A DNA stretch of 64,000 nt, taken from assembly GCA_947502495.1 (NCBI GenBank), contig CANNAC010000004.1:218576-282575 (forward strand). Direction: 5' to 3'. Source of the stretch: an uncultured Flavobacteriaceae bacterium. GTDB taxonomy: Bacteria > Bacteroidota > Bacteroidia > Flavobacteriales > Flavobacteriaceae. The position numbers were made by a program, and so were the translations under genes. Each line of letters opens with the position of its first letter. The stretch's first letter is position 1. This document shows positions 28,329-56,490 of this stretch, piece by piece. The notes beneath the pieces were generated by a model, which was not told the origin of the DNA, ran no database searches, and worked only from the letters and a program-made list of their open reading frames with translations.

Positions 28329-28350
28329 AGTTAAGCAGTTGGGCTTAACT
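28329..28350 (-). terminator. hairpin with T-run just upstream of tRNA-Leu
   Basis: A 7-bp GTTAAGC/GCTTAAC stem with a 6-nt loop, followed on the minus strand by six T. It lies 130 bp beyond the TetR stop and only about 21 bp before the tRNA-Leu 5' end. It probably terminates the transglutaminase-TetR transcript. The same hairpin sequence follows the second tRNA-Lys gene. Confidence 0.7.
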
Positions 28351-28386
28351 CATGGAACGTATTCGAATAGAATATAGGCCAAAGGA

Positions 28387-28394
28387 CAAATATA
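28387..28394 (-). promoter_or_regulatory. -7 element between TetR gene and tRNA-Leu
   Basis: Minus-strand TATATTTG matches TAnnTTTG perfectly, but no TTG lies 19-21 bp upstream. It is the only promoter-like element seen for tRNA-Leu, and the hairpin at 28329-28350 lies between them. Confidence 0.4.
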
Positions 28395-28481
28395 AATCAT
28401 TTGAAATTTTAAAACTATTTGAAAACTAATAATTTTAGAAACTATATAGCATGTAGGGATCGGCTTTGCTGGTAGAAGATG

Positions 28482-35329: not shown

Positions 35330-35376
35330 CAACTTTAAATACTTAAAACCCTTTCTTTTAGAGAGGTTGAGAGAGA

Positions 35377-37342: not shown

Positions 37343-37355
37343 ACAAAAAAATACG

Positions 37356-37363
37356 TAATTTTG
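37356..37363 (+). promoter_or_regulatory. -7 element of accA
   Basis: TAATTTTG matches TAnnTTTG and is followed by CAC, as is usual in this family. It is 33 bp before the accA start. No -33 TTG was found. Confidence 0.5.
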
Positions 37364-37396
37364 CACACTAACTATTAATTAAACTTAAATTCAAAA

Positions 37397-38350: not shown

Positions 38351-38378
38351 TCCGTATAAAACCACCTAATAAAAAATT

Positions 38379-38405
38379 CTGAAGTCATACGCTTCAGTTT
38401 TTTTT
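38379..38405 (+). terminator. terminator of accA
   Basis: A CTGAAG/CTTCAG stem (38379-38384 with 38392-38397) with a 7-nt loop and eight T, 28 bp after the accA stop. Confidence 0.82.
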
Positions 38406-38437
38406 ATGCTTATTAACAATATTTATCACTTATTAAC

Positions 38438-38453
38438 AGTTAAAATGTTAACT
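38438..38453. promoter_or_regulatory. 16-bp palindrome upstream of dnaB
   Basis: AGTTA-N6-TAACT has the same half-site spacing as the palindrome next to the Crp/Fnr gene (TGTTA-N6-TAACA). It lies 66 bp upstream of the dnaB start. It may be an operator; in AT-rich DNA such palindromes also arise by chance. Confidence 0.3.
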
Positions 38454-38518
38454 ACCTGTGAAGATTGAACTATCTTTATAGGTACTAATATCTCAACAAT
38501 TTATTTACATTCGCTTAC

Positions 38519-40054: not shown

Positions 40055-40099
40055 ACAAATGTATTAGTAGCTAGATTAAATAGAAAAATAAGAACCTAC

Positions 40100-41113
40100 A
40101 TGTTAAGCGAACGCAGAACCACCAACATACTACTATTAATTATAGTGATACCCATTTTGTTTTATTTATTAAAAGTATTGTCTTTTATATTTATTCCATT
40201 GGTGTTCGCTATGTTTATTGCGTTGTTGTTTTTACCATTAATGCGTTGGTTGGGAAAACGTAGAGTTCCAAAAATAGTAAGTATAATTATCATTGTTTTA
40301 TTAATAGGGCTAGGATTAAAAATAGGAGTAGAGCTTATCAAATTATCGAGTAAACAGATTATGGCTAGTGATACTGCCTTTTTTGATAAAGCGGAAGTTA
40401 AAATAAATGATGCAGCACTTTACCTAGAAAACACTTTTGGGGTAGAGATGCAAAAAGATAAAAATATCTTATCTCAATTTATTCAAAAGGAAAACATTGG
40501 TACAACCGTTGGTTTTTTACGTCAGTTTTTAACCATGTTACTCATGACGGCATTCTTTGTAGTACTCTTATTAGCAGAATCTATTAATATGCAGGATGTT
40601 TTAAATAAAATGGTTTTAAAGAAAAAACGAACTTCTTTACTAGCATATGGTAAAATACAAAAAGAACTAAATACCTTTATAAAAGTAAAGTTTTTAGTTA
40701 GCTTTTTAACAGGTGTTGGTACCGGCTTGGCTTGCTATTTCTTTGATGTTAGTTTCCCTATTTTTTGGGGGCTTTTTGCTTTTGTCATTAATTTTGTACA
40801 AATGGTAGGTTCCTTTATTGCAGTCATTGCACTTTCCATTTTTGCGTTTATAGAATTAGATCCAACAAGTACTTTGTTTCTATTTGTAATCGCTATTACC
40901 GGAGTGCAGGTATTATTTGGTGCTATTTTAGAACCTGTTTTTATGGGAAAATCCTTCTCTATAAATATTATAACAGTTTTAGTAATGTTAATGTTTTGGG
41001 GATTCCTTTGGGGAATTCCAGGACTTATTATGGCTATTCCAATTACTGTTTTTCTTAAAATTATCTTTGAACAATTTCCTAGTACTAAAAAGATTTCGGA
41101 TTTAATTTCTTAG
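40100..41113 (+). CDS. AI-2E-family membrane transporter/permease
   Basis: A 337-aa protein with about seven hydrophobic segments and the conserved C-terminal GFLWGIPGLIMAIPI motif of the AI-2E (UPF0118) family. The family includes exporters and Na+/H+ antiporters; the AI-2 name is historic and no substrate can be assigned here. Confidence 0.9.
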   Translation: MLSERRTTNILLLIIVIPILFYLLKVLSFIFIPLVFAMFIALLFLPLMRWLGKRRVPKIVSIIIIVLLIGLGLKIGVELIKLSSKQIMASDTAFFDKAEVKINDAALYLENTFGVEMQKDKNILSQFIQKENIGTTVGFLRQFLTMLLMTAFFVVLLLAESINMQDVLNKMVLKKKRTSLLAYGKIQKELNTFIKVKFLVSFLTGVGTGLACYFFDVSFPIFWGLFAFVINFVQMVGSFIAVIALSIFAFIELDPTSTLFLFVIAITGVQVLFGAILEPVFMGKSFSINIITVLVMLMFWGFLWGIPGLIMAIPITVFLKIIFEQFPSTKKISDLIS

Positions 41114-41170
41114 ACGAATTACCACGTTTTTCATTATCTTTAATTTTCAAATTAAAAAGATAATAAGTTC

Positions 41171-42091
41171 ATGGTTCATGGTACACATAATGCTGTAGAA
41201 GACAGCAGAAATAAAGACATTCAAATTTATATTAACGGAGAATTCTTCCAAAGAGAAGACGCTAAAATTTCGGTTTTAGATAGTGGCTATCTTGTAGGAG
41301 ATGGTATCTGGGAAGCACTTCGTTTACATAAAGGTGTTCTCGTTTTTCTAAAAGATCATTTAGATAGATTATGGCAATCTGCAGCTGCTGTTGGTATGCA
41401 ATTTCCTTTTTCTAAAGAAGGATTGATTGAAGAAGTATGGAAAACCTTAAATAAAAATAATATGCAAGACCATGTGCACGTGCGTATTATGATTACTAGA
41501 GGAATTAAAAAAACACCATCGCAAGATCCTAGACTTACTATTTCAGGACCAAATGTGGTTATTTTACCAGAATACAAAAAAGCTTCTCCAGAAAGTAAAG
41601 AAAAAGGAATCACTTTATTTACAAGTACAGTCCGTCGTGGGTCTCCAGATTATTTAGATCCTAGATTAAATTGTCATAGCAAACTACACGAAGTACAAGC
41701 ACTTATTCAAGCCATTGAAGCTGGAGCAGACGAAGCGTTAATGTTAGATGTAAACGGTTTTGTTGCTACTTGTAATGCAACTAACTTTTTTATTATAAAA
41801 GATAACGAAGTATATACGTCTACCGGACAATATTGTATGAATGGTATTACTAGAGCTAAAGTTATTGAGGCTTGTAAAATAAATAATATACCATGTCACC
41901 AAAAAGACTTCTCCTTATTTGATGTATATGGTGCAGACGAAGCTTTTGTTACGGGAACTTTTGGAGGATTAACACCGGTTACCAAAATTGATGGTAGAAT
42001 AATCGGGGAGAAATCTTATGGCGATTTTACTAGAAAATTAAGCGGTTTATATAATGAATTAATTGATAAAGAAGTAGCAAATGGTAAGTAG
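41171..42091 (+). CDS. class IV aminotransferase (D-amino acid / branched-chain type)
   Basis: A 306-aa fold-type IV PLP enzyme with the lysine that carries PLP at residue 171 (NCHSKLHEVQALIQA) and the motif ADEALMLD...GFVATCNATNFF. It transfers an amino group between an amino acid and a 2-oxo acid. Its end overlaps the sulfotransferase-like gene by 11 nt. In plants, I recall, these two domains are fused in one protein (the branched-chain aminotransferase-like BCAL proteins), which suggests a joint function. Substrate unknown. Confidence 0.87.
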   Translation: MVHGTHNAVEDSRNKDIQIYINGEFFQREDAKISVLDSGYLVGDGIWEALRLHKGVLVFLKDHLDRLWQSAAAVGMQFPFSKEGLIEEVWKTLNKNNMQDHVHVRIMITRGIKKTPSQDPRLTISGPNVVILPEYKKASPESKEKGITLFTSTVRRGSPDYLDPRLNCHSKLHEVQALIQAIEAGADEALMLDVNGFVATCNATNFFIIKDNEVYTSTGQYCMNGITRAKVIEACKINNIPCHQKDFSLFDVYGADEAFVTGTFGGLTPVTKIDGRIIGEKSYGDFTRKLSGLYNELIDKEVANGK

Positions 42092-42812
42092 TAAACGCAT
42101 CTGTTTGTGGTCTGGACCAAGAAATATCTCCACAACTTTAATGTATAGCTTTGCACAAAGGGAAGACACAAAAGTAGTGGATGAACCTTTGTATGCACAT
42201 TATTTAAGAAATACAGACGCAAAAGAATATCATCCAGGAACCCAAGATATTTTAGATACTTTAGAGCAGGATGGTAATAAGGTGATAGCCGAAATGATGT
42301 CGAATGCAACAAGTCCCGTTTTCTTTTTTAAAAATATGACACATCATTTATTAGATGTGGATAGAGATTTTATGAAAGATGAAAACGTGTATCATGTCAT
42401 GCTAACACGAGATCCTCATGAAATGCTTCCGTCTTTTGATAAAGTGATAGAAAATCCCAGTTTGGAGGATGTTGGTTATGCCAAACATACCGAGCTGTTA
42501 GATTATTTCGAAGCCAATAATATAAAACCAATTGTGTTAGACTCAAAACGAGTACTATTAAATCCGAAGAACGTATTAAGCCAATTATGTGATTTTATAG
42601 GTATTCCTTTTGATGAAAATATGTTGCATTGGCAAGCAGCAGCGAGACCAGAAGATGGCGTTTGGGCAAAATATTGGTATGCAAATATTCATAAATCTAC
42701 AGGATATCTGCCCTATAAACCAAAGTCAGAAACTTTTCCAGAACATCTAGAACCGCTATTAAAAGAATGTATGCCGCATTATAATAAATTACTTAAATAC
42801 GCGATTGGTTAA
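42081..42812 (+). CDS. sulfotransferase-like P-loop protein
   Basis: A 243-aa protein that starts with the P-loop-like segment WSGPRNISTTLMYSFAQRED, the PAPS-binding position of sulfotransferases, and has the DEPLYAHYL block that follows it. The later stretch MLTRDPHEMLPS is the second PAPS-binding motif. It overlaps the aminotransferase gene. A true sulfotransferase activity is not shown by sequence; the family also contains enzymes of other or unknown function. Confidence 0.8.
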   Translation: MVSSKRICLWSGPRNISTTLMYSFAQREDTKVVDEPLYAHYLRNTDAKEYHPGTQDILDTLEQDGNKVIAEMMSNATSPVFFFKNMTHHLLDVDRDFMKDENVYHVMLTRDPHEMLPSFDKVIENPSLEDVGYAKHTELLDYFEANNIKPIVLDSKRVLLNPKNVLSQLCDFIGIPFDENMLHWQAAARPEDGVWAKYWYANIHKSTGYLPYKPKSETFPEHLEPLLKECMPHYNKLLKYAIG

Positions 42813-42864
42813 AATTGTACTAATGCTGTTTTAAACAAAGTAATTTTTAAGTATCTTTCTTGCA

Positions 42865-44121
42865 ATGAAAAAAATAATCACAGTATTTCTAATCCTTTTA
42901 TTTACACAAGCTTATGCTTCTTACATCCTCATTCCTATGGATGCAGAGACGCAAAAAAACCATTTAAAGGCCTACGGAATTACCTATTGGACTTTAGAAA
43001 AACAGCTTAAAGTAAAATGGCTACTTAATTATCGCGGTGGGGCTTTTCTTTTACCTGATAGTCAAGAAATTCAGCGGGAATGTCAAATACGAGGCGTTTC
43101 TTTCGAAATCTTATCTAACGCTAAAGCGGAAGGTATTCTCGAAGAAATTAGTAGTCCGAGTAAAAACATGGAAGCAATCGTTTTAGAAAAAGCACCAAAA
43201 ATTGCGGTGTATAGTCCGAAAGGAAAATTGCCTTGGGACGATGCAGTAACTATGGTTTTGAGTTATGCTGAAATTCCGTATGAAACCATTTATGATGAAG
43301 AAGTTTTAGGAGATGCACTTTTGTTATATGACTGGTTGCATTTACATCATGAAGATTTTACAGGGCAATACGGGAAATTTTATCGCGCATATAAAACAGC
43401 CGCTTGGTATATTGAAGAAAAAAAGGAAGCAGAAGCATTAGCGACCAAGCTTGGTTATGATAAAGTTTCACAAGAAAAATTAGCCGTTTCCTTAAAAATA
43501 AGAGACTACGTCATTGGTGGCGGATTCATGTTTGCCATGTGTAGCGCAACAGATAGTTTTGATATAGCACTTTCTGCGCAAGGATTAGATATTTGCGAAC
43601 CTATGTTTGATGGCGATGGTAGTGACGCCAATTATCAAAACAAAATTGACTTCAGTAAAACCTTTGCATTCAAGGATTATACCTTAGAGCAAAGTCCGAA
43701 TGTGTATGAGTTTTCTAGTATAGATATGACGCAAAAACGGAAAATAGCTAAAACAGTAGATTATTTTACGCTTATGGATTACTCTGCAAAATGGGATCCA
43801 ATTCCAAGTATGCTATGCCAAAATCATACGGCATTAGTGAAAGGTTTTATGGGGCAAACCACGTCTTTCACACGCGAGGAAATCAAAAGTAACGTTTTGG
43901 TGATGGGAGAAAATAAAACCAATGGTGAAGCTAAATACATTCATGGTATAAAAGGAAAAGGTTTTTTCACCTTTTATGGAGGCCATGATCCAGAAGATTA
44001 TACCCATCGCGTTGGAGATCCTAAAACCGAATTAGACTTACATCCAACTTCACCAGGTTATCGACTTATTTTAAACAATGTGTTATTTCCTGCTGCTAAA
44101 AAGAAGAAGCAGAAAACCTAG
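42865..44121 (+). CDS. exported glutamine-amidotransferase-like protein (often mislabelled asparagine synthetase B)
   Basis: A 418-aa protein with signal peptide MKKIITVFLILLFTQAYAS. No asparagine-synthetase domains are visible: there is no N-terminal Cys nucleophile of class II amidotransferases and no PP-loop. A central segment (RDYVIGGGFMFAMCSATDSF) resembles a class I amidotransferase nucleophile elbow with Cys near residue 226, and the region KGFFTFYGGHDPEDY near the end has the His expected for such a fold. It is likely a periplasmic hydrolase-fold protein. From memory this family is widespread in Bacteroidota under the AsnB label. Confidence 0.7.
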   Translation: MKKIITVFLILLFTQAYASYILIPMDAETQKNHLKAYGITYWTLEKQLKVKWLLNYRGGAFLLPDSQEIQRECQIRGVSFEILSNAKAEGILEEISSPSKNMEAIVLEKAPKIAVYSPKGKLPWDDAVTMVLSYAEIPYETIYDEEVLGDALLLYDWLHLHHEDFTGQYGKFYRAYKTAAWYIEEKKEAEALATKLGYDKVSQEKLAVSLKIRDYVIGGGFMFAMCSATDSFDIALSAQGLDICEPMFDGDGSDANYQNKIDFSKTFAFKDYTLEQSPNVYEFSSIDMTQKRKIAKTVDYFTLMDYSAKWDPIPSMLCQNHTALVKGFMGQTTSFTREEIKSNVLVMGENKTNGEAKYIHGIKGKGFFTFYGGHDPEDYTHRVGDPKTELDLHPTSPGYRLILNNVLFPAAKKKKQKT

Positions 44122-44122
44122 T

Positions 44123-45823
44123 ATGAGATATTTTTTTCTTTGTATTTCATTGCTTATGTTTCAATTGTCCTTTTCTCAAAAGGATGAAATTGTAGATTTT
44201 GGCCAAAATTTAATTAACCAAAATAAATTAGATCAAGCAATAACCTATTATGCGAAACGCATAGTAGAACCTAGTAATGAGGAACAGAAAATTCACTTGC
44301 TTTTAGGACTTGCAGAAGTTTATAAGTTAAAACTAGATTATGATACCGCTAGTGATTATTATATTAAGGCTTTTGAGAGCATTAAAAATATTAAGAATAA
44401 GCAGTTAGCGTTTTTATACCATGTAAGAATGGCAGAGTTTTTTAGGAAGAGAACAATGCTAGTCGAATCTGCAGCTCAGCTGGATAAAGCAGCACTTATT
44501 TTAAAGGGCAATAAAGTGGAAGATCTTTATTTAGCTAAATATTACAATCGGAAAGCAGCACTTTTTACAGAGTTTTATCATATACAAGATTCCACACTTT
44601 TTTATGCCAATAAATCACTGGATTTATCCAAAAAGATAAAGGACAAAGATAATGTGTTTTATTCTTTACTTGAGATTGCAGGTGTTTATGAACGTAAAAA
44701 AGAATATAAAACGGCAATACGCTATTTAGAAGAAATTATTGATTTTGCAAAAAACAATAATATGGAGCAACAGGAAGCGGATGCTTACATAAGTTATATC
44801 ATGGCTTTAGCAAGAAGCAACCAATTAGAAAAAGCATTGAAAACAGCTTTATATGCAGCTGATTTCTCTAAAAATAAAAACTTATTATACAATGAAATAA
44901 TCTTTAATGAGAATATTCAAAACTTGTATTTTAGATTGAACAATACAGAAAAGGCATACGAATATTTAAAATACAGATTAGAACTTACTACTAAGTATGA
45001 TGAAATACAAAAGGAGGAATTGCTATTAAACGTAGAAGCCCAATACAAACTAGCAGAAAAAGAAAATCAAATTACCATTAATAAGCTGGAGATTATTAAT
45101 CAAAAGAAAGAATTAGCCTCGAATAGAATAAACTTATACATTGTTCTATCCTTATTTGTATTTGCTATATCTATAGCTTTGTTAATTGCCTATTTTCTTA
45201 AAAAGACAAGAAATAATAATAAAAAACTGCAATCTTTATCTCAAGAAAACCAATTCTTATTAAGTGAAGCGAATCACCGCATTAATAATAATTTACAATT
45301 GGTAGTTATCCTAATTTCAAATCAGCTTAAAAAAACTTCCGAAGAAGAAGGGATGCAACTAAAAAACATCTTAACAAAAGTAGAAGCTATTTCTACTTTA
45401 CATAAACATTTGTATAAAAATGAAGATAAGAAGAAGGTGGATATTGGTAGTTATTTAAATGATGTAAAGGTTAGTTTTTTTGATGTCTTTCAAGAAAATG
45501 ATATTCAAACCAATTTTAAAGTCCCTTTCATTGAAATGCCAACAGATCTAGCAATGTACCTTGGGTTGTTGCTTACCGAATTATTAATAAATTCCATAAA
45601 ATATGCGTTTAACAAACAAGATAATAAAGCCATTCATTTTGAATTAAAATATACCAATGGTGTCTTGTTTTTTGATTATGCAGATAATGGAAACGATAAT
45701 TTCAATAAAACAATTAAACCTAAACTGATAGATAAAATCTGTCGTCAATTAGAAATGAATTATAAAATTAGTACAGAAAATGGATTTTCATTTTCTATCG
45801 TAAAAAAAATCAATAATGATTAA
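44123..45823 (+). CDS. TPR-containing sensor histidine kinase (HisKA_2 type)
   Basis: A 566-aa protein with signal peptide MRYFFLCISLLMFQLSFSQ, a periplasmic TPR array (residues ~20-330, e.g. TASDYYIKAFESIKNIK), a transmembrane helix around residues 345-365 (LYIVLSLFVFAISIALLIAYF) and a HisKA_2 kinase (phosphoacceptor His in LSEANHRINNNLQLV). The ATPase part includes LLLTELLINSIKYAF and DYADNGND. It begins 1 bp after the AsnB-like gene and overlaps its response regulator gene by 8 nt. It signals to the LytTR regulator downstream. Confidence 0.9.
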   Translation: MRYFFLCISLLMFQLSFSQKDEIVDFGQNLINQNKLDQAITYYAKRIVEPSNEEQKIHLLLGLAEVYKLKLDYDTASDYYIKAFESIKNIKNKQLAFLYHVRMAEFFRKRTMLVESAAQLDKAALILKGNKVEDLYLAKYYNRKAALFTEFYHIQDSTLFYANKSLDLSKKIKDKDNVFYSLLEIAGVYERKKEYKTAIRYLEEIIDFAKNNNMEQQEADAYISYIMALARSNQLEKALKTALYAADFSKNKNLLYNEIIFNENIQNLYFRLNNTEKAYEYLKYRLELTTKYDEIQKEELLLNVEAQYKLAEKENQITINKLEIINQKKELASNRINLYIVLSLFVFAISIALLIAYFLKKTRNNNKKLQSLSQENQFLLSEANHRINNNLQLVVILISNQLKKTSEEEGMQLKNILTKVEAISTLHKHLYKNEDKKKVDIGSYLNDVKVSFFDVFQENDIQTNFKVPFIEMPTDLAMYLGLLLTELLINSIKYAFNKQDNKAIHFELKYTNGVLFFDYADNGNDNFNKTIKPKLIDKICRQLEMNYKISTENGFSFSIVKKINND

Positions 45824-46484
45824 GCTACAAAAAACTAAAATTCTTATTGTAGAAGATGATGTTATTATTGCAGAATATATAGAAGAACTGCTACAAGAAG
45901 AAGACTTTTCTAATATTAAAATTGCAAATACCAAAGAAGTAGCTATAACCGAGATGGCTTCTTTTTTACCAGATATTATTTTAATGGACATTAATTTAAA
46001 AGGTGTCCATTCGGGAATAGAATTAGCGAAAGTGAAGAATAGTAACGCAACCATTATTTTTATTACAGGACAGCACGATTTGGCCTTAATGGAGGATGCT
46101 TTAAAAACAAATCCGGATGCCTATTTAACCAAACCTTTAAAAAGAGTAGATTTACTGGCTTCTATAAATTTGGCCATGTATAAAAAGCAAGCACAAATGT
46201 TTCAGTTTAAAGATGGTTATGATATTATTAGTTTAGATTTTAATGATATTAAGTACTTTATTGCCGAAGGTAACTATGTAAATATTCAAACCATTTCAAA
46301 AAAATATACCATTAGAAAATCATTAAACACCATTGCAGAAGAATTACCTTCCGAAATTTTTAAACAAACACATCGATCTTATATCGTAAACACCAAAAAA
46401 ATACAACGTGTTTCAACTAATTCGGTGTTTATAAATGGTATAGAAATTCCTCTATCGAGAACCTACGCAAAACAGTTTAAGTAG
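45816..46484 (+). CDS. LytTR-family response regulator
   Basis: A 222-aa protein with a receiver domain (acidic pocket EDD, phosphoacceptor Asp58 in LMDINLKG, TGQHD, TKPLKRVDL) and a LytTR domain (residues ~130-222: YFIAEGNYVNIQTISKKY, FKQTHRSYIVNT, ending IPLSRTYAKQFK). It overlaps the kinase gene by 8 nt. A damaged copy of its C-terminal half lies at 52041-52306, in front of the second LamG gene, together with similar downstream DNA. Confidence 0.93.
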   Translation: MIKLQKTKILIVEDDVIIAEYIEELLQEEDFSNIKIANTKEVAITEMASFLPDIILMDINLKGVHSGIELAKVKNSNATIIFITGQHDLALMEDALKTNPDAYLTKPLKRVDLLASINLAMYKKQAQMFQFKDGYDIISLDFNDIKYFIAEGNYVNIQTISKKYTIRKSLNTIAEELPSEIFKQTHRSYIVNTKKIQRVSTNSVFINGIEIPLSRTYAKQFK

Positions 46485-46579
46485 CCATTTACATACAAAA
46501 TATTGCGTTTCAACCCTTGTTATCTGTATTTTATGGAATAAAAGTTAATTTTAATCCGTGTTAAATTATTACAGTCTTA

Positions 46580-48097
46580 ATGAAACAAAAATATTTTATT
46601 CTTTCTATAATTGCTGCATTAATCTCAGCTTATGCATATACAACGCTAAATATATTTTTAGTTTGTATGTCTTGGGTGCCATTTATCTACAATATAGTAT
46701 CTCTAAAAAGTAAAAAACAAATATGCTTAAATGGTTTTCTGTTTGGTTTTATTTACGGATTATGTCTCTTTAATTGGACTCAAGTTGCTTTAAAAGATTA
46801 TTCTACTTTAAATTCTTATAGATATTTAGTTACAATTTTACTATCTGTATTTTATGGTATTATTTATACGGTTTTTGCAATAGTTTTAAGCAAATTAAAT
46901 AATGGAAAACACAAAAAAAACTATTTAATTTTTATCAATAATATTGCTGTTGCAGCTGTTTTTGTACTTATTGAATCTGTTTTGTCCCATGTATATCATG
47001 GGATTCCTTTTTTAAATTTAAGAATTGGTTTTGTACTCGGAAAAAACTTGTATTTATCGCAATTAGCATCTATTGGAGGCGTGTCAATACTTACATTTAT
47101 AATAATTATTACCAATGTATTTATAGCTAATTTTATAAAGTCTAAGCAGAAAATTAACGTAATAGTAGCCATTTTTGTACCTGTTTTTAGTATGGCAGTA
47201 GGATTTATTATGTTTTCTACTTATGAAACGCAACGTGCCAATGTAGTAAAAGTGAGCGTTGTTTCTGGAAACATTGATCCAAAAGTAAGTTGGACTGAAT
47301 CGACTGGTAATACATTGGCTTCAAATTATTTTTCAGTTTGTAAGGAAGCTACTAAAAATAATCCGGATTTTGTAGTTTGGCCAGAATCTGTTTTTCCATG
47401 GGTTTATAATGAGAATGATGATTTAATCAAGGAATTATTAAAAATTAATAACAAGCCAAATTTCAATACCATTCATGCTTTTGGTTTAAATTCAAAAATT
47501 AATAATTCAAAAGACGACATAGCAAACTCTGTTTTACTTATCAACAATAAAAACCAAAAAATTGGTACTTACTATAAAAATATTTTATTAGAATGTTTTG
47601 AAAAACCACTTTTTAATACGTTTCAAATCCCATTTGCTTATAGTGAAAAATATACATATGCAAAAGTAGGTCAACCAAAGCCATTAGATACAGATTTAGG
47701 CAAAGTAGGAATGTTAATTTGCAACGAATCTATAGAAGAAAATTTTGTTAATAAACAAGTAAAAAATGGCGCTAATTTCTTTTTTGTAGTCGCAAACGAT
47801 GGTTGGTTTAAGGACACTTACATTAGTTTACACCATTTTTATATAGCACGTATTCTTGCAGCAGAAACTAGAAAAGATTTTGCAATAAGTAGTAACTGTG
47901 GTTTAAGTGGGTTTATTAACTCTTCAGGAGAAATATTGGCAATGGAAAAATCGAACAAGCCACTAACAATATCACAAAAAATATATAAAAATAAAGAAGA
48001 AACTATATATACAAAAATGCCTTTTTTATTTAGTTCGCTCTTAATTCTAATTATTGCAACAAGTCTAATTTTAAAATTTAAATTAAAAAAATCATGA
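46580..48097 (+). CDS. apolipoprotein N-acyltransferase (Lnt) paralogue
   Basis: A 505-aa protein with six or more N-terminal membrane helices, a carbon-nitrogen hydrolase domain (residues ~225-470) and a C-terminal helix. The catalytic triad of Lnt is intact: Glu269 (VVWPESVF), Lys333 (GTYYKNILL) and Cys381 (MLICNES); spacing is close to E. coli Lnt (E267, K335, C387). Lnt acylates the N-terminal Cys of lipoproteins. The sequence is divergent (CNE instead of the common CYE) and its stop overlaps the start of a T9SS LamG gene (ATGA), so it is likely a dedicated second copy with a specialised client. Confidence 0.8.
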   Translation: MKQKYFILSIIAALISAYAYTTLNIFLVCMSWVPFIYNIVSLKSKKQICLNGFLFGFIYGLCLFNWTQVALKDYSTLNSYRYLVTILLSVFYGIIYTVFAIVLSKLNNGKHKKNYLIFINNIAVAAVFVLIESVLSHVYHGIPFLNLRIGFVLGKNLYLSQLASIGGVSILTFIIIITNVFIANFIKSKQKINVIVAIFVPVFSMAVGFIMFSTYETQRANVVKVSVVSGNIDPKVSWTESTGNTLASNYFSVCKEATKNNPDFVVWPESVFPWVYNENDDLIKELLKINNKPNFNTIHAFGLNSKINNSKDDIANSVLLINNKNQKIGTYYKNILLECFEKPLFNTFQIPFAYSEKYTYAKVGQPKPLDTDLGKVGMLICNESIEENFVNKQVKNGANFFFVVANDGWFKDTYISLHHFYIARILAAETRKDFAISSNCGLSGFINSSGEILAMEKSNKPLTISQKIYKNKEETIYTKMPFLFSSLLILIIATSLILKFKLKKS

Positions 48098-51000
48098 AAC
48101 AAAAATTATTATTATTGTTATTTCTCGCAAACAGTCTTGTGTTGTTTGCGAATCCTGAATATCAACAGAATGGCTATAGATGGCGAAATGACAATGGAAA
48201 TCAAACAACTGCAACCTGGAAAGCTGCCACTAATACACCATCTATTGTAAATTTAGTTGATGAGCAATTAAGACTAAGAATTGAAGTTAAAGAAACTTCT
48301 AATGATTATGGTTCAATCTCAACAGTTCCTTTATTTTACCGTAAAAATGGAGGTAGTTGGGTTGCTGTTTCTAATAATACTAGTACCGACTTTTATTTTG
48401 TAAACAGTACTTATGTTGAAGATGGTTTTAGTACAACCCAACAAATTTCTTCAGGTAGTTACAGCCCTGGAGTATTTAAGTCTTATAGTAGCAGTTCATC
48501 TATATATTTAAATGATCTAAGTAGAACAGAAATTGAATATTGCCTAGCACCTTCAACATTATATGACAAAACTGCTACGTATGAATTTCAAATTTCTAAT
48601 TTAGATGATTACGCTATTTATCCGACTTTAAATGCAAATCCCAGTTTTTGTGAAACTGTAAAACCTACAGTGTCTAATATAACCTATATTCTTAATCATG
48701 TAGCCTCACCATTAACCGCTACAGGTACTAACTTACTTTGGTATACAACAGCGAGTGGTGGTACAGGTACTGCAACTGCACCTACACCAACAACATCTTC
48801 TGCTGGCGCTACAAGTTATTGGGTTACACAAACATTAAATGGTTGTGAAAGTTTGCGACAACCCATAATTGTATATGTAGGTGTGCCAGCTACCCATTTA
48901 AATTTTGATGGAGCTAATGACCACGTTGTTTTATCAAACAATGTAAATAACACATTAAGTGGTGGTACAGCAATAACAATTGAATATTGGTTTAAAGGTA
49001 CTAATGTGCAAAGCGCAGTTCGTTTTCAAACACATGGTGCTTATAATGATTTTATAACAGCTGGATGGGGAAGTGGGAATCCTCTATTTTTAGTTTCTAC
49101 AGATGGATATAATACTGGAGTAGAGTTAGGAGATGAATCGGTTATTGAAGACAATACATGGCACCATGTTGCATGTGTATGGGAAAAGAATGAAATTTTT
49201 GCAACCTACCTAGATGGTGTTTTACAAAATTCTCGTGTCGCAGCTAATGTAAATCTTCCTTTGTTGCCTGAAAATAGTGGGTATCTTGGTATTTTTGGAG
49301 GAACAATAGAACCATTAAATGGAAGTTTAGACGATGTTCGTATTTGGAATGTGGCTAGAACAGTAGAACAAATTAACGGTTCCAAGGATTGTGAACTACA
49401 AGGTTCAGAAACAGGTTTAGTAGCCTATTATAAATTTAATCAAGGTTTAGATCCATTAGAAAATACTACAGAAACAACACTTACAGATGCAACTTCTAAT
49501 GGAAATAATGGAACCTTAACTAATTTTGCATTATCAGGATCAACAAGTAACTGGTTAGCAGGTTCTCCTATAGCTATGCTTCCATCTGCACCAACAGTAA
49601 CAACACCTGTGGTTTATACTCAAGGAGCTACAGCTTCGCCATTAACAGCAACAACAGGAGCTAATGGTACAGGATTATTATGGTACACAACAGCAACTGG
49701 AGGAACAGATTCTACAACAGCACCAACGCCAAGTACAGCAACAGTTGGTTCTACATCATACTGGGTTGCAAGTACTAACGCAAATGGTTGTGAAAGTGAA
49801 AGTGAACGAACAGAAATTGTGGTTACAGTAGATGCTCCACTTCCTGCTACCCATTTAAATTTTGATGGTGTGGATGATTTTATTGATTGTGGTAATATAT
49901 TGCCAGAGTCATACACAAAAGAGGCATGGATTTCTATAAATGCAATTAATAGCACAAGTAATATAATTTCAGGCTCAGATAATTTTGGACAAAATGCTTT
50001 TTGGGTACCAAATGGAGTGTTATCTGCTGGTCATAATGGTATCTGGAATGCTGTAGAAGATTCAAATGTATTATCAGTAAATACTTGGTATCATGTAGCA
50101 GTTAGTTATGATTACGCCACTCAAACCTTAAAATTATATAAAGACGGAATTTTAATAGATTCAAATACTAATGTTTCGGCTCCAATTAATGGTAATGATA
50201 TTCATATAGGATCTTTTAATGATGCAGGTAACTTATTTAATGGATCTATTGATGAAGTTCGTATTTGGAATGTCGCAAGAACAGCAGAACAAATTAATGG
50301 CTCTAAAAATTGTGAATTACAAGCTTCTCAGTTAGGATTAGTCGCTTATTATAATCTTAATCAAGGTATAGATTCAGGAAATAATACATCAGAAACTACA
50401 GCTATAGATGCAACTGGTACAAATAACGGGACATTAACTAATTTTTTATTAACAGGAGCAACATCAAACTGGTTAGCTGGTTCTCCAGTAGCAACAGGAT
50501 CAATAATGCCTTCTGAAGCAACGGTTTCAACACCAGTAGCTTATAATCAAGGAGATAATGCGTCACCATTAACAGCTACTACAGGTACAAACGGTACAGG
50601 TTTATTATGGTACACAACAGAAACTGGAAGTATAGGCTCTACAACAACGCCAACACCAGACACTTCAACTTTAGGTTCTACATCATATTGGGTATCAAGT
50701 ACAAATGCAAATGGATGTGAGAGTGAAAGGACGGAAATTATGGTGGAAGTGAATGCAATAATTCCTGCAACACATCTAAATTTTGATGGCGTTGATGATA
50801 AAGTTGTATTACCAAACGAATCGAATTTTGATTTCACAGCAACATTTTCAATAGAATGTTGGATAAAAGTGAATTCTTTTACACAAGAATGGCAAACAGT
50901 AATTTCTAAAGGAAATGAAGGACCAAGAATCCATAGATACGGATTTTCAAACTTTATTGCATTTGGTACAGGACCAGAAAATGATTTAGCCTCAACCATC

Positions 51001-51960
51001 GCAGTCAATGATGGGAATTGGCATCATATTGCTGCAACTTGTGATAATGGTGTTAAAAGTTTATATGTAGATGGAATTTTTCAAGGAACACAAACGGTTA
51101 GTACTCCAATAGTAACAAATAATGATCCAGTATTAATAGGAAGCCAATCCGACTTCTATAGTCCAGTTAGAGCATTTCATGGGGATATTGAAGAGGTACG
51201 CTTTTGGGATGTTGCAAGAACAGAATTGGAAGTTAATAATTCTAAAAATTGCGAATTATTAGGTAATGAAACCGGTTTAGTAGCCTATTATAAATTTAAT
51301 CAAGGAAATGACGCAGCTGATAATACATCGGAAACAAGTTTATTAGATGCAACTTCAAATGGAAATAATGGAACGTTAACTAATTTTGATTTAATAGGAG
51401 CAACATCAAACTGGTTCGCTGGTTCTCCAGTAACAACAGGATCAATAATTCCTTCTGCACCAACAGTTACAACACCAGTAACCTATACGGAAGGTGATAC
51501 GGCAAGTCCATTAACAGCAACAACAGGAGCTTATGGAACCGGTTTATTATGGTATGCTACAGAAACTGGAGCAACTGGCGATGTTAATGCGCCAACACCA
51601 GATACCGCAACAATTGGTGCTACAAGCTATTGGGTAGCTAGTACAAATGAAAATGGTTGTGAGAGTGAGCGTTCGGAAATTGTTGTAAATGTAGAAGAAA
51701 CATTAGGTGTTTCTAATAATATAATACTAAATACAATACGTGTATATCCTAATCCAACAAACGGAATACTTACTATTTCAAATGCTTTAGGTAATACAAT
51801 GCATGTAATTGTTTATGATATGAACGGAAGAGTATTGTATAATGAAAATTATAACAAAGAAACAAACACATTAGATGTATCTCATTTTAGTAACGGAATA
51901 TATTTATTGAAAATTAAAACAGAATTCGGAGAAATTTCGAAAAGAATTATTAAAAATTAA
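48094..51960 (+). CDS. giant surface protein with LamG and Ig-like repeats and T9SS type A tail
   Basis: A 1288-aa protein with signal peptide MKQKLLLLLFLANSLVLFAN. After an N-terminal region unlike the rest (to about residue 190) come an Ig-like repeat and then three [LamG, Ig-like] units: LamG at ~265-485, 583-800 and 888-1110. Each Ig-like repeat has the pattern SPLTAT...LLWY.T...G...TPT...GATSYWV...NGCESER. The last ~80 residues form a T9SS sorting domain (RVYPNPTNGILTIS ... GIYLLKIKTEFG). It should bind carbohydrate or matrix at the cell surface. It is translationally coupled to the Lnt paralogue. Confidence 0.88.
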   Translation: MKQKLLLLLFLANSLVLFANPEYQQNGYRWRNDNGNQTTATWKAATNTPSIVNLVDEQLRLRIEVKETSNDYGSISTVPLFYRKNGGSWVAVSNNTSTDFYFVNSTYVEDGFSTTQQISSGSYSPGVFKSYSSSSSIYLNDLSRTEIEYCLAPSTLYDKTATYEFQISNLDDYAIYPTLNANPSFCETVKPTVSNITYILNHVASPLTATGTNLLWYTTASGGTGTATAPTPTTSSAGATSYWVTQTLNGCESLRQPIIVYVGVPATHLNFDGANDHVVLSNNVNNTLSGGTAITIEYWFKGTNVQSAVRFQTHGAYNDFITAGWGSGNPLFLVSTDGYNTGVELGDESVIEDNTWHHVACVWEKNEIFATYLDGVLQNSRVAANVNLPLLPENSGYLGIFGGTIEPLNGSLDDVRIWNVARTVEQINGSKDCELQGSETGLVAYYKFNQGLDPLENTTETTLTDATSNGNNGTLTNFALSGSTSNWLAGSPIAMLPSAPTVTTPVVYTQGATASPLTATTGANGTGLLWYTTATGGTDSTTAPTPSTATVGSTSYWVASTNANGCESESERTEIVVTVDAPLPATHLNFDGVDDFIDCGNILPESYTKEAWISINAINSTSNIISGSDNFGQNAFWVPNGVLSAGHNGIWNAVEDSNVLSVNTWYHVAVSYDYATQTLKLYKDGILIDSNTNVSAPINGNDIHIGSFNDAGNLFNGSIDEVRIWNVARTAEQINGSKNCELQASQLGLVAYYNLNQGIDSGNNTSETTAIDATGTNNGTLTNFLLTGATSNWLAGSPVATGSIMPSEATVSTPVAYNQGDNASPLTATTGTNGTGLLWYTTETGSIGSTTTPTPDTSTLGSTSYWVSSTNANGCESERTEIMVEVNAIIPATHLNFDGVDDKVVLPNESNFDFTATFSIECWIKVNSFTQEWQTVISKGNEGPRIHRYGFSNFIAFGTGPENDLASTIAVNDGNWHHIAATCDNGVKSLYVDGIFQGTQTVSTPIVTNNDPVLIGSQSDFYSPVRAFHGDIEEVRFWDVARTELEVNNSKNCELLGNETGLVAYYKFNQGNDAADNTSETSLLDATSNGNNGTLTNFDLIGATSNWFAGSPVTTGSIIPSAPTVTTPVTYTEGDTASPLTATTGAYGTGLLWYATETGATGDVNAPTPDTATIGATSYWVASTNENGCESERSEIVVNVEETLGVSNNIILNTIRVYPNPTNGILTISNALGNTMHVIVYDMNGRVLYNENYNKETNTLDVSHFSNGIYLLKIKTEFGEISKRIIKN
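50302..50414 (+). repeat. 113-bp block identical to 53919-54031
   Basis: Inside the LamG/Ig region of the 1288-aa protein. By eye it is identical base for base to the second LamG gene, encoding CELQASQLGLVAYYNLNQGI and what follows. Flanking sequence is clearly less alike, as expected for gene conversion. Confidence 0.75.
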
Positions 51961-52008
51961 GTGCAACATAAATCTATATGGAGGGTCGCAGGAATGCGAC
52001 CCTTTTTT
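51412..52008 (+). repeat. 597-bp direct repeat, copy A (end of first LamG gene plus terminator)
   Basis: Aligns without gaps to 54087-54683. By eye about 12 substitutions were counted, including silent and amino-acid-changing ones. It covers the last Ig repeat, the T9SS tail and the terminator. Confidence 0.85.
51983..52008 (+). terminator. terminator of the first LamG gene
   Basis: A perfect 8-bp GGGTCGCA/TGCGACCC stem with a GGAA loop and six T, 22 bp after the stop codon. Confidence 0.92.
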
Positions 52009-52040
52009 GTGCTTAAAAAAGGGATAATAATAAATCCTAA

Positions 52041-52306
52041 ATTTAGATGTTTGGCAGGATATTTATCTGTGTAAGCATATGGTGGCAGATGGAAATTATA
52101 TCAACATTCAAAATATCACAAAGAAGTATACCCCTAGGTAATCGTTAAATACGATAGCAGCACAATTACCAATAGATATATTTAAACAAACACATCGTTC
52201 TTATCTTGTTAATATAACGAAAGTACATCGTATTAATGCAAACTCAGTATTTATAAACGGTGTAGAAATCCCTCTATCTAGAACCTACGCAAAACAATTT
52301 AAGTAG
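52041..52306 (+). pseudogene. broken copy of LytTR response regulator (C-terminal half)
   Basis: The frame ending at the TAG 52304-52306 translates as GNYINIQNITKKYTPR, then stop (TAA, 52139-52141), then SLNTIAAQLPIDIFKQTHRS and onwards to IPLSRTYAKQFK. It corresponds to the last ~80 residues of the intact regulator at 45816-46484. The receiver domain is missing, and the lost codon is TAA where the intact gene has AAA. The following ~90 bp (52307-52400) also match the DNA after the intact gene (46485-46570). Confidence 0.85.
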
Positions 52307-52409
52307 TCATTTATATACAAAATATTGCATTTCAACCCTTGTTATTTGTATTTCATAGGATAAAAAGTTAGTTTTAGCGTCCTTAATTAAACTAACAAAT
52401 TTATAATTT

Positions 52410-54635
52410 ATGAAACACATTTATTTTTCTTTTATACTGATAATCTTCAGTAGTTTTTTATCCTTTTCACAAACAGGAACACACCTTAATTTTGGTGGAG
52501 CTAATGATTATGTAGATTGTGGTAGCGAACCAAGTTTAGAGATTACTGGAAATACAATTACTTTAGAGGCTTATGTAAAATTCAATGCTTTTGGTGCTGC
52601 ACATTGGTTAGGTAATATTATTAATAAAGCATCACCAAATGCTAGTGGTTATATGTTAAGAGCTGGTGGTAATGGTGCTGTTAATTTTGTTGTTGCAAAT
52701 TTTGGGTGGTATGAATTAACTACGCCAGATAATACAATTACTCTAGATACTTGGTTTCATATTGCAGGGGTGTATAATGGTACTACCTCAAAAATTTATA
52801 TCGATGGTATTGAGGTTGCCTCCACTAATATTGCAATGGGTAATATTGGTAACTCCACTTTTAATGCAAACTTAGGGAGAGATCCTCAAGATACTGTTAG
52901 AAGATTGGATGCATCATTAGACGATGTGCGTATTTGGAATATTGCAAGAACAGCAGAACAAATTAATGTTGGTAAAAATTGTGAATTACAAGGTAACGAA
53001 ACTGGTCTAGTAGCGTATTATAAATTTAATCAAGGGATTGGTGCAGCAGATAACGCATCCGAAACAACAGTTATTGATGCAACAGGAACCAATAATGGAA
53101 CTTTAACTAATTTTGATTTAACAGGAACGACTTCTAATTGGTTAGCAGGTTCGCCAATGGAAATACTTCCTTCTGTACCAACAGTTGCAACACCAGTAAC
53201 CTATACGCAAGGAGATACTGCTTCACAATTAACAGCAACAACAGGATCTAATGGAACGGGATTAATGTGGTACACATCACAATCTGGAGGAACTGGAGAT
53301 GCAAATGCACCAATACCAGATACATCAACAGTTGGTTCTACATCATATTGGGTAGCTAGTACAAATGATAATGGTTGCGAAAGTGAAAGAACAGAAATGG
53401 TGGTGGTAGTGAATGCAATTCCTCAAGCAACACATTTAAATTTTGGAGGTGCTATAGATTATGTAAATTGTGGTAATGGTGCAAGTTTACAAATCTCAGG
53501 GTATGCTATAACTCTAGAGGCTTATATTAAATTTAATAGTTTTGCAGGAGCTGAATGGGGAGGAAATATTATTAATAAAAGCGGTACTGGTGATTATGGT
53601 TATATGTTAAGAGCTGGTGGTAACGGAGTTGTTAATTTTAATTTAGGAAATGGTGCTTGGCATGAAGTAAACTCTCCACAAAACACAATAAGTTTAAATA
53701 CTTGGTATCATATAGCAGGAGTGTACGATGGTACTACTCAAAAAATATTTGTAGATGGTATTGAAGTCGCTTCAAATAACCTTTCCATTAATTTTGTTGA
53801 AAGTGGTTTTAATTTAAATTTAGGTCGTGACCCTCAATTTACAGATAGAGGTATAGACGCGTCAATAGATGAAGTTAAAATATGGAATATTGCAAGAACA
53901 GAAGAACAAATTAATGGTTCTAAAAATTGTGAATTACAAGCTTCTCAGTTAGGATTAGTCGCTTATTATAATCTTAATCAAGGTATAGATTCAGGAAATA
54001 ATACATCAGAAACTACAGCTATAGATGCAACAGGAACTAATAATGGAACTTTAACTAATTTTGATTTAACAGGAACGACTTCTAATTGGTTCGCTGGTTC
54101 TCCAGTAACAACAGGATCAATAATTCCTTCTGCACCAACAGTTACAACACCAGTAACCTATACGGAAGGTGATACGGCAAGTCCATTAACAGCAACAACA
54201 GGTGATAATGGAACCGGTTTATTATGGTATGCTACAGAAACTGGAGCAACTGGCGATGTTAATGCGCCAACACCAGATACTGCAACAATTGGTGCTACAA
54301 GCTATTGGGTAGCTAGTACAAATGAAAATGGTTGTGAGAGTGAGCGTTCGGAAATTGTTGTAAATGTAGAAGAAACATTGGGTGTTTCTAATTATACAAT
54401 ACTAAATACAATACGTGTATATCCTAATCCAACAAACGGAATACTTATTATTTCAAATGCTTTAGGCAATACAATGCATGTAATTGTTTATGATATGAAC
54501 GGAAGAGTATTGTATAATGAAAATTATAACCAAGAAACAAACACATTAGATGTATCTCATTTTAGTAACGGAATATATTTACTGAAAATTAAAACAGAAT
54601 TCGGAGAAATTTCGAAAAGAATTATTAAAAATTAA
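52410..54635 (+). CDS. surface protein with two LamG/Ig-like units and T9SS tail
   Basis: A 741-aa protein with signal peptide MKHIYFSFILIIFSSFLSFSQ, then LamG (~20-245), Ig-like (~250-330), LamG (~335-560), Ig-like (~565-645) and a T9SS sorting domain with RVYPNPTNGILIIS. It is a shorter paralogue of the 1288-aa protein; its 3' end is nearly identical to it. It directly follows the LytTR pseudogene and probably had its own regulator copy once. Its expected location is the cell surface. Confidence 0.88.
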   Translation: MKHIYFSFILIIFSSFLSFSQTGTHLNFGGANDYVDCGSEPSLEITGNTITLEAYVKFNAFGAAHWLGNIINKASPNASGYMLRAGGNGAVNFVVANFGWYELTTPDNTITLDTWFHIAGVYNGTTSKIYIDGIEVASTNIAMGNIGNSTFNANLGRDPQDTVRRLDASLDDVRIWNIARTAEQINVGKNCELQGNETGLVAYYKFNQGIGAADNASETTVIDATGTNNGTLTNFDLTGTTSNWLAGSPMEILPSVPTVATPVTYTQGDTASQLTATTGSNGTGLMWYTSQSGGTGDANAPIPDTSTVGSTSYWVASTNDNGCESERTEMVVVVNAIPQATHLNFGGAIDYVNCGNGASLQISGYAITLEAYIKFNSFAGAEWGGNIINKSGTGDYGYMLRAGGNGVVNFNLGNGAWHEVNSPQNTISLNTWYHIAGVYDGTTQKIFVDGIEVASNNLSINFVESGFNLNLGRDPQFTDRGIDASIDEVKIWNIARTEEQINGSKNCELQASQLGLVAYYNLNQGIDSGNNTSETTAIDATGTNNGTLTNFDLTGTTSNWFAGSPVTTGSIIPSAPTVTTPVTYTEGDTASPLTATTGDNGTGLLWYATETGATGDVNAPTPDTATIGATSYWVASTNENGCESERSEIVVNVEETLGVSNYTILNTIRVYPNPTNGILIISNALGNTMHVIVYDMNGRVLYNENYNQETNTLDVSHFSNGIYLLKIKTEFGEISKRIIKN
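53919..54031 (+). repeat. 113-bp block identical to 50302-50414
   Basis: Partner of the block inside the first LamG gene; no differences seen by eye. Confidence 0.75.
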
Positions 54636-54683
54636 GTACAACATAAATCTATATGGAGGGTCGCAGGAATGCGACCCTTTTTT
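54087..54683 (+). repeat. 597-bp direct repeat, copy B (end of second LamG gene plus terminator)
   Basis: Partner of 51412-52008, no gaps, about 12 substitutions. Confidence 0.85.
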
Positions 54684-54684
54684 T
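54658..54684 (+). terminator. terminator of the second LamG gene
   Basis: The same 8-bp GGGTCGCA/TGCGACCC hairpin with GGAA loop as in the first LamG gene, followed by a T-run. Confidence 0.92.
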
Positions 54685-55008
54685 TGTTTTAAACAGTTCC
54701 ATTAATAAAGCAAGGAATACAAAAAAATAAAAGAAATAATTCATTCACATATAAATAACTGCATTTTAAAACATATTATTATAAGGTATTCTTTTATTAA
54801 TTATTTTTATTGCAATAAGCTATTATTCATTATTTGAATATTTTTAATAACAGAGAGCAAACGATTAATAGTAGGATTCGTTGTTTTATTAAAGTAATAG
54901 TAATAATTAAAGAGATTACTTTATTTAAAAAAGGTTGTAGTTTTGCAGCCTTTTTTGTTTATCTTTTTTTAGAACTTATTATTTATTACTTTTAAACAAA
55001 ACAATATC
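54685..55008 (+). other. intergenic region with two hairpins before the EF-hand gene
   Basis: No ORF was seen. An AAAGTAAT/ATTACTTT inverted repeat lies around 54890-54924. At 54933-54957 GGTTGTA pairs with TGCAGCC (with G-U pairs) and is followed by a T-run, so it looks like a terminator although no gene is upstream. The same stretch holds TAGTTTTG (54938-54945) with TTA 19 bp upstream, a possible promoter for the EF-hand gene. Which role is real cannot be told by eye. Confidence 0.4.
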
Positions 55009-55287
55009 ATGGCAACTAAAGAAATCATACTAAACAAAATTCAAATACTAATAACCAATAATTTTGAAACTCCAGAAGCAGCTTTTCATTTCTTTGATAA
55101 AGATAGTGACGGTAAACTTTCCAAAAGTGAAATCGTAAAACTACTTAAAGAAGCAGAAATTAACGGATTTATTCGTGGTTTAGTATCTTCAAAACTTATT
55201 GAAGGCTATGATAAAGATGGCGATGGCTTAATTAATTGGGAAGAATTTAAGTTCGCTATAGATGAAATAACAGACGATTCTAAATAA
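55009..55287 (+). CDS. EF-hand calcium-binding protein
   Basis: A 92-aa protein with two EF-hand loops: DKDSDGKLSKSE (near residue 26) and DKDGDGLINWEE (near residue 68), each with Asp at positions 1, 3 and 5 and Glu at 12. No signal peptide is present, so it should be cytosolic, which is unusual for bacterial EF-hand proteins. It lies 3 bp upstream of yjbQ and is probably in its operon. Target unknown. Confidence 0.85.
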   Translation: MATKEIILNKIQILITNNFETPEAAFHFFDKDSDGKLSKSEIVKLLKEAEINGFIRGLVSSKLIEGYDKDGDGLINWEEFKFAIDEITDDSK

Positions 55288-55290
55288 TAC

Positions 55291-55713
55291 ATGAAGTTTT
55301 TTCAAAAGGAAATAAAACTCAAACCTTATTCTAGAGGATTTCATATCATAACAGAGCAAATAGAATCTGTAATACCAGAAATTAGTGACATTCAAATCGG
55401 ACAATTACAGGTTTTTATTAAACATACTTCTGCAAGTGTAACCATAAACGAAAATGCAGATCCAACGGTTAGATTAGATTTTGAAAGCCATATCAATAAA
55501 ATGGTTCCAGAAAATCAGCCCTATTACAAACATACCTATGAAGGAGATGATGATATGCCTGCACATCTTAAAGCATCTTTAATGGGAACTTCGGTTCAAA
55601 TTCCAATAACAAACGGAAAATTGAATTTGGGCATTTGGCAAGGTATTTATCTTTGTGAACATAGAAATCATGCTTCCGGAAGAGATTTAGTATTAACTGC
55701 CTTCGGAAACTAA
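55291..55713 (+). CDS. yjbQ: YjbQ/UPF0047 family protein (secondary thiamine-phosphate synthase)
   Basis: A 140-aa protein with the UPF0047 signature regions VFIKHTSASVTINENADP, DDMPAHLKASLMG and GIWQGIYLCEHR. The family has weak thiamine-phosphate synthase activity in E. coli; its main role is uncertain. It follows the EF-hand gene by 3 bp and overlaps the convergent HAD gene at its 3' end by 21 nt. Confidence 0.93.
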   Translation: MKFFQKEIKLKPYSRGFHIITEQIESVIPEISDIQIGQLQVFIKHTSASVTINENADPTVRLDFESHINKMVPENQPYYKHTYEGDDDMPAHLKASLMGTSVQIPITNGKLNLGIWQGIYLCEHRNHASGRDLVLTAFGN

Positions 55714-56490
55714 TTGTTCTAAAATGCGCTCCACACCAAAATCATCATTATTTGTAGTTTGATAATTCGCAATGGCTTTAATATTTTCATGCGCATTTTC
55801 CATAGCATAACTATAACTTGCACCTTGTAACATTTCAAAATCATTATTGTAATCGCCAAACGCCATCGTTTCTGCAGGACTTATATCGTGCTTTTGTTGA
55901 AGAAAACGTAAAGCATGCCCTTTGTTAGATTGTGCTTCCGATATATCTACCCAATGATTTCCAGAAACAACAACATTATATTCTGGGGATAAATGTTTTA
56001 CAAATGGATAAATGTTTGCTTCCGAATTGGTAGCATGATAAAGCGCGATTTTAATCACTGGATCTTTAATTTCTTCTATAGAATCAATAATGGTATAGTT
56101 CGAATAGTATTCCGAAAACACTTGAATCATATCTGAAGAAGCTCTTTTTATATACGCTTGGTGTTTCGTGCAAAACATAGGAAAAGTGTTTTCTAGATTA
56201 TTTACAATAGTAAAAAGTTTAGAAAGTTTTTCATTTTCAATAGCATTAGATAAAAGTAAAGTGTCTTTTTCTAAAACTAATCCACCATTTTCGGCAACAA
56301 TAATAATGTCTTCCACAATAGCTGCTAGTTTTGTGGTAATACTATAATAAGGTCTTCCGCTAGCTGCAACAAACAAAATGTTTTGCTTTTTTAATTCATT
56401 AAAAACATCAAAAAACCTGCGGCTAACTTCATGATTGGAATTTAATAAGGTGCCATCCATATCTGTAATTACCATTTTTACTTGCGTCAT
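55693..56490 (-). CDS. Cof-type HAD-superfamily hydrolase
   Basis: A 265-aa protein with HAD motif I DMDGTLLNS (residues ~9-17), the motif II region VAASGRPYYS, Lys near NKGHALRFL and motif III/IV GDYNNDFEML. Cof-type enzymes dephosphorylate sugar or nucleotide phosphates. The substrate is unknown. Its 3' end overlaps the convergent yjbQ gene. Confidence 0.92.
   Translation of the reverse strand: MTQVKMVITDMDGTLLNSNHEVSRRFFDVFNELKKQNILFVAASGRPYYSITTKLAAIVEDIIIVAENGGLVLEKDTLLLSNAIENEKLSKLFTIVNNLENTFPMFCTKHQAYIKRASSDMIQVFSEYYSNYTIIDSIEEIKDPVIKIALYHATNSEANIYPFVKHLSPEYNVVVSGNHWVDISEAQSNKGHALRFLQQKHDISPAETMAFGDYNNDFEMLQGASYSYAMENAHENIKAIANYQTTNNDDFGVERILEQLVSEGS

Follow-up and report, generated by a model that had tools for sequence, protein, structure and literature searches.

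Organization of the locus

The window analysed here, a stretch of 64,000 nt from an uncultured member of the Flavobacteriaceae (GCA_947502495.1, contig CANNAC010000004.1), comes from a genome that is congeneric with Lacinutrix himadriensis E4-9a (contig NZ_LIQI01000031). In the comparisons and trees, the window genome is denoted G000 and L. himadriensis G004. The features of the locus all lie on the + strand. It opens with a gene for a TPR sensor histidine kinase (44123-45823; HisKA_2, PF07568, E 2e-15), which is followed by the gene for an intact LytTR response regulator (45816-46484; Response_reg, PF00072, E 5e-18; LytTR, PF04397, E 6e-22), and orthologues of the kinase adjoin the regulator in related loci as well. 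Immediately 3' of the regulator stop, a pattern search located TTTACATACAAAATATTGCGTTTCAACC, a 28-nt operator-like box (46488-46515), and a comparison of repeats across loci gave two LytTR-like half-sites with a 21-nt period (46504-46512 and 46525-46533). A predicted -7 element, TAATTTTA (46546-46553), is one base off TAnnTTTG and lies at the same distance from the box as at other loci.

Domain matches identify the next gene (46580-48097, 505 codons) as Lnt-like, with LNT_N and CN_hydrolase domains; its end overlaps the start of the first of two large surface-protein genes, LamG1, by 4 bases. LamG1 (48094-51960) encodes three LamG (PF13385) and four Ig_7 (PF19081) domains, and LamG2 (52410-54635) encodes two of each. 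Both proteins finish in a C-terminal T9SS sorting domain (Por_Secre_tail, PF18962; E 9e-16 in LamG1 and 2e-15 in LamG2), and an N-terminal signal peptide is apparent by eye in both. Between these genes, just 111 bases beyond the LamG1 stop, a distance that includes a terminator-like hairpin seen by eye (51983-52008), lies the fragment, the broken 3' end of a regulator gene, with part of the LytTR domain (52072-52306). It is followed by a second copy of the box with one mismatch to the search pattern (52310-52337), by two half-sites found with the half-site pattern and again with a 21-nt period (52326-52334 and 52347-52355), and by the predicted -7 element of LamG2, TAGTTTTA (52369-52376), whose distance from the box exceeds that at other loci by one base. 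The original prediction placed the regulator before the first LamG gene; it does lie upstream, but it does not adjoin LamG1, since the Lnt-like gene, which had been overlooked, intervenes.

The Lnt-like gene is rare. Its protein is matched by 24 others at 33% identity or more, after which there is a gap down to 25-26%. The gene was not found in the genomes of three relatives, and a search of 299 evenly drawn Flavobacteriaceae genomes at E 1e-50 recovered it from its own genome alone, with L. himadriensis not among the matches. It is also the only PF20154 match in its own genome, in a search that was positive in just 7 of 14 control genomes. Residues E269, K333 and C381, which we take to be the Lnt catalytic positions, look present.

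Kinship of the fragment and its neighbours

The fragment has the marks of a pseudogene: homology to an intact gene, truncation and an in-frame stop. Positions 52072-52371 align without gaps to 46250-46549 at 76% identity over 300 nt, so that a broken LytTR copy does precede LamG2, as had been claimed; the stop codon placed at 52139 is an in-frame TAA (52139-52141), and the homology said to continue into the spacer survives the gap-free alignment, running beyond the regulator stop codon to about 52376. (The count of four TAA codons refers to a longer stretch that begins left of the homologous piece.) When 46200-46600 was searched against the whole genome, the fragment came back as the second match (78%, query positions 64-354, E 9e-64) and no third tail copy appeared, all remaining matches having E values of at least 0.03. 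The idea of an element with many copies in the genome was rejected, as there are only two tail copies and two boxes. A 21-nt inverted match between 52039-52059 and the start of a LamG domain is at chance level, though by a rough estimate only.

In L. himadriensis the layout is the same, with the Lnt-like gene and the fragment included. The window fragment is identical to the intact tail of the L. himadriensis regulator at 223 of 232 positions (96%) and to the L. himadriensis fragment at 218 of 232, compared with 175 of 235 (75%) for the intact tail in its own genome; together with the spacer, the fragment region matches the L. himadriensis regulator end at 94.0% over 319 nt. A tree of the tails gives the same picture, (G004 intact,(G000 fragment, G004 fragment)), with supports of 1.0 and 0.988 and the intact G000 tail outside. 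Both Lacinutrix fragments have a common 5' truncation and common left flanking bases, while their stop codons differ. The shared truncation implies that the piece was already short in a common source.

This likeness can be set against the rest of the region. Among 41 genes, those of the locus included, the median identity of G000 and G004 at four-fold sites is 0.715. The Lnt-like gene, at 0.94, is the second highest, LamG1 and LamG2 stand at 0.85 and 0.86, and the regulator, at 0.49, is the lowest. Fragment and Lnt-like gene thus agree better between the two species than do most of the genes nearby, and the 94% stands against such a median although the fragment is decayed and encodes no protein that could be preserved. 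The nine genes from 34199 to 44121 range from 0.57 to 0.79 and the six genes to the right of LamG2 from 0.73 to 0.98. Because this right flank is itself fairly alike, LamG1 and LamG2 stand out less than the Lnt-like gene, which counts against the transfer of a block.

Sliding identity is about 0.9 up to the vicinity of 44965, where it falls to 0.64-0.86, and it stays low until the end of the regulator before it leaps to 0.93-0.99 across the Lnt-like gene. The divergent block (44965-46484, left edge approximate) takes in the transmembrane and catalytic part of the kinase and the regulator, and appears in all three pairwise comparisons of G000, G004 and a further relative, G001. Among Lacinutrix species, divergence is thus far greater in the kinase core and the regulator than in the sensor half of the kinase and the surrounding genes. 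The tree of the regulator N-terminal part joins G004 with G001 (ultrafast bootstrap 98), whereas that of the tail joins G001 with G006 (91), a conflict indicating recombination inside the regulator, which blurs its history. Of 38 genes compared, LamG rows excluded, 29 place G001 nearer to L. himadriensis than the window, 7 point the other way and 2 are tied. G001 has the kinase, the regulator and then one LamG gene, without the Lnt-like gene or the fragment. Taken together, these sequence comparisons suggest that a block running from the Lnt-like gene through LamG1 and the fragment to LamG2 likely moved between lineages, each of which kept its own kinase core and regulator.

The surface genes have a history of their own. 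The LamG genes and their terminators are homologous, as had been claimed: 53908-54709 is 91.3% identical to 51230-52034 over 805 nt. This likeness had been offered as evidence of the duplication, but it is more probably a later local copy, since the 3' end of LamG2 is nearest to LamG1 of its own genome (91.3%, compared with 82% to L. himadriensis LamG1 and 73% to L. himadriensis LamG2). Most likely, the 3' end and terminator of LamG2 were copied from LamG1 within the window lineage, and the reading of the two terminators as relics of the original duplication was rejected. Two patches of LamG1 (50184-50684 and 51184-51684) with identities of 0.73-0.88 to L. himadriensis, amid values of mostly 0.91-0.99, suggest domain exchange inside the LamG genes too.

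In L. himadriensis, the gap between the regulator and the Lnt-like gene still holds what is left of an older surface gene, namely its promoter and first codons. This remnant is best matched by B. saleffrena (66 of 87 identical) and also by G001 (63 of 92), in each case with none of 200 shuffles as good; W_G474 was not matched (37 of 200). W. undariae has a comparable surface-gene remnant, with the box at chance level. The L. himadriensis remnant makes it likely that the spot behind the regulator had exchanged surface genes before. Differences between the two species extend beyond the locus. LamG2 of L. himadriensis is followed by a gene for a 223-residue membrane protein that the window does not have, and by a second, shorter copy of an EF-hand gene (L039, 15612-15923; 83% to window positions 54977-55287), a gene present once in the window's list of open reading frames. 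At 21764-29713, six consecutive minus-strand open reading frames of at least 100 codons had no match in the stretches fetched from L. himadriensis and G001, and may form an inserted island.

The region behind the regulator stop

The survey of related loci comprises 24 loci. From a list of 80 loci, eight (L047-L053 and L080) were compared, L046 being the G004 contig itself; more distant loci (e.g. L054 and L055) and the 35%-identical G005 locus lie outside the set. The first gene of at least 120 codons behind the regulator is a large one with a T9SS-like C-terminus, judged by eye, in 18 of the 24 (in B. myxarmorum its start is interrupted), and the Lnt-like gene in two, the window and L. himadriensis. 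No gene of that length follows in the remaining four (G006, W_G449, W. wichelsiae and W. undariae); G006 has the kinase and the regulator without a LamG gene there. The pairing of kinase and regulator with an adjoining surface gene thus extends well beyond the genus. Tail copies occur in five of the 24 loci in all, a count that could miss copies further on, as some of the stretches stop at a contig end.

The box was searched for as a 28-mer with two R positions and up to three mismatches, and with a reversed pattern as control. It occurs at two sites only in its own genome, behind the intact regulator and behind the fragment, twice in G004, and once each in G001 and G006. None was found in G002, G003 and G005, where the best regulator match is at 35% or absent (E 1e-20), and the reversed pattern gave none in any genome searched. 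In 18 of the 24 loci it scores above every one of 300 shuffles; the window, which served as the reference, is one of these. It is weaker in F. tegetincola (3 of 300 shuffles), G237a (5) and G237b (10), and at chance level by the same 300 shuffles in G306, W. wichelsiae and W. undariae. Within the window, the two box regions agree at 29 of 32 positions, compared with 175 of 235 in the coding part, a difference that is marginal taken alone (Fisher p 0.046).

LytTR sites are described as 9-base direct repeats 12 bases apart, which makes a 21-base period (PMC6193735). When 21 of the 24 loci were pooled, leaving out three with a box score below 17, the repeat signal was 0.47 at an offset of 21, compared with 0.17-0.37 for the remaining offsets in the range 8-35. 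The loose half-site pattern occurs at 11 sites in the genome, three of them exact, of which two are in the locus. A wider regulon was considered and set aside: nine of the 11 matches lie elsewhere, just one of these is exact, and the reversed control gave five sites.

The -7 consensus of flavobacterial sigma-A promoters is given as TAnnTTTG (PMC9723704). This motif is found at one exact distance from the box in 14 of the 24 loci, and TAnnTTTR in 16, a spacing that recurs in several genera. The two predicted window promoters have TAnnTTTA instead, with a final TTTA where the consensus has TTTG. This promoter spacing is absent in W. thalassocola, W. costae and three kin, where the box lies 57-68 bases further down. 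G006 and W_G449 keep the box with no surface gene there, and the overlap of the second half-site with the predicted -33 region would also suit repression. The window fragment retains the box, the half-sites and the predicted promoter that are found behind the intact regulator, with one extra base, and for this reason the regulator may serve both genes. Judged from the sequence, the surviving regulator most likely controls both LamG genes, with the box as the candidate operator, and LamG2 is predicted to share its control with the gene that follows the intact regulator.

A second case is found in Winogradskyella. Two surface genes flank a decayed regulator tail and spacer in W. costae, in W. 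thalassocola and in a congener, G473. These fragments fall within a clade of five intact Winogradskyella tails (support 1.0; their place inside it, 0.207), and a single origin with the Lacinutrix fragments was rejected because they group with the Winogradskyella intact tails; most likely, they record a separate event. The W. costae gene behind the tail copy is of the resident type, with its N-terminus scoring 380 against Bizionia G440 and its C-terminus 444 against W_G474, whereas the gene between the regulator and the tail copy has no resident N-terminus (score 49 or less). The second gene of W. thalassocola has a resident-type C-terminus only, so that this comparison of gene ends is half-informative there, and it is uninformative for Lacinutrix. 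An order of intact regulator, newcomer, tail copy and resident is the layout expected from a single-crossover insertion in the tail. It is possible, though doubtful, that the regulator 3' end acts as a landing pad at which single crossovers stack incoming surface genes under one regulator. Equally tentative is the detail that insertions between the regulator and its resident target would leave a copy of tail, operator and promoter before the old gene.

Origin of the fragment and comparison with known systems

The mosaic itself is real, an unusual arrangement of known parts that the 24 loci show in two separate lineages. For its history, the original prediction proposed that a unit of regulator and surface-protein gene was duplicated and that the copies of kinase and receiver were then lost, which is read here as tandem duplication of kinase, regulator and LamG gene in an ancestor of the window. 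The two halves are indeed homologous in fragment, spacer, LamG genes and terminators, and L. himadriensis has the same layout. Duplication in place was not supported: the fragment resembles the regulator of L. himadriensis more than that of its own genome, tblastn with the window regulator matched no more than residues 137-222 at the fragment and thus showed no receiver remnant, there is no kinase copy among the matches listed for 43000-56000 (20 of 23 repeat families), and the likeness of the LamG 3' ends is a later local event. This history is now improbable. The outcome named beforehand as fatal to it, a fragment arriving separately from the LamG gene, was not what the relatives showed; the two came together.

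A better case can be made for a duplication in a shared ancestor, with vertical descent and later replacement of about 44965-46484 by a divergent allele in the window lineage, which would make the fragment a fossil of the replaced regulator. The strong and sharply bounded divergence of this interval in three pairwise comparisons fits well, as do the lowest regulator identity of the 41 genes and a right flank about as alike as the LamG genes. Such descent is nevertheless rather unlikely, as it would leave a decayed fragment alike at 218 of 232 positions, and the Lnt-like gene at 0.94, against a four-fold median of only 0.715, and G001, although nearer to L. himadriensis in most genes, is without the block. 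Far less probable still is that the fragment is a silent cassette that donates sequence for gene conversion of the regulator DNA-binding domain. The conflicting trees of the regulator N-terminal part and tail could be read in this way, and an intact gene with a 5'-truncated copy resembles expressed and silent pairs known elsewhere, but the stop codons of the fragments differ, the intact tail of L. himadriensis agrees better with the window fragment (0.961) than with the fragment of its own genome (0.944), and one fragment was found per locus.

The preferred explanation, to which we assign a probability of roughly 0.65, is that the fragment, the tail of a LytTR regulator gene, came in together with the surface genes and was kept for the predicted promoter behind it. 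In this family of loci, the operator-like box and the predicted promoter of the next surface gene lie directly behind the regulator stop, and so a piece that carried the promoter would bring the regulator tail along; the tail would then be free to decay, while the promoter behind the remaining stub would let the surviving regulator switch on LamG2. The donor would have been similar to L. himadriensis, the surrounding surface-protein genes moving in one block. We infer both the lateral transfer and its direction; for the direction, a divergent allele could instead have taken the place of the kinase end and regulator in the window genome, following a duplication shared by both species. If this explanation is correct, it would account for an easily overlooked type of pseudogene, a regulator stub retained because of the promoter that follows it, and would provide a simple route, at the level of sequence, by which a bacterium adds surface proteins that come connected to a sensor it already has. 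It also predicts a small regulon, with two strong sites.

A literature search by topic terms, covering the sources in part, returned no publication on a LytTR-LamG-T9SS locus. Several known systems are nonetheless similar. ComE is one LytTR regulator with a direct-repeat operator. Others are LRS (PMC6193735) and AgrA (PMC4227749), which are alike in the LytTR domain and, as far as the candidate half-sites go, in 9-base repeats with a 21-base period by the promoter. Here, however, the partner is a HisKA_2/TPR kinase, the host is a flavobacterium, and the box is behind the regulator gene and before the next surface gene; in addition, their repeat 2 is about 4-11 bases upstream of the promoter, whereas here it reaches the predicted -33 region. 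An LRS is defined as a LytTR regulator paired with an inhibitory membrane protein and is distinct from two-component systems (PMC6193735), while the regulator of this locus carries a receiver domain and its gene adjoins that of a HisKA_2 kinase. The LamG genes share their domains with other T9SS LamG/Ig_7 surface proteins, but here they stand beside a kinase-LytTR pair, with an Lnt-like gene before LamG1. PorXY-SigP likewise ties two-component control to T9SS; to our knowledge, PorX is not a LytTR regulator, and the predicted targets here are the adjoining cargo genes rather than the secretion machine. Finally, pairs of the pilE/pilS type also place a 5'-truncated copy near an intact gene, but here the truncated copy derives from a regulator, has decayed and carries a predicted promoter at its end.
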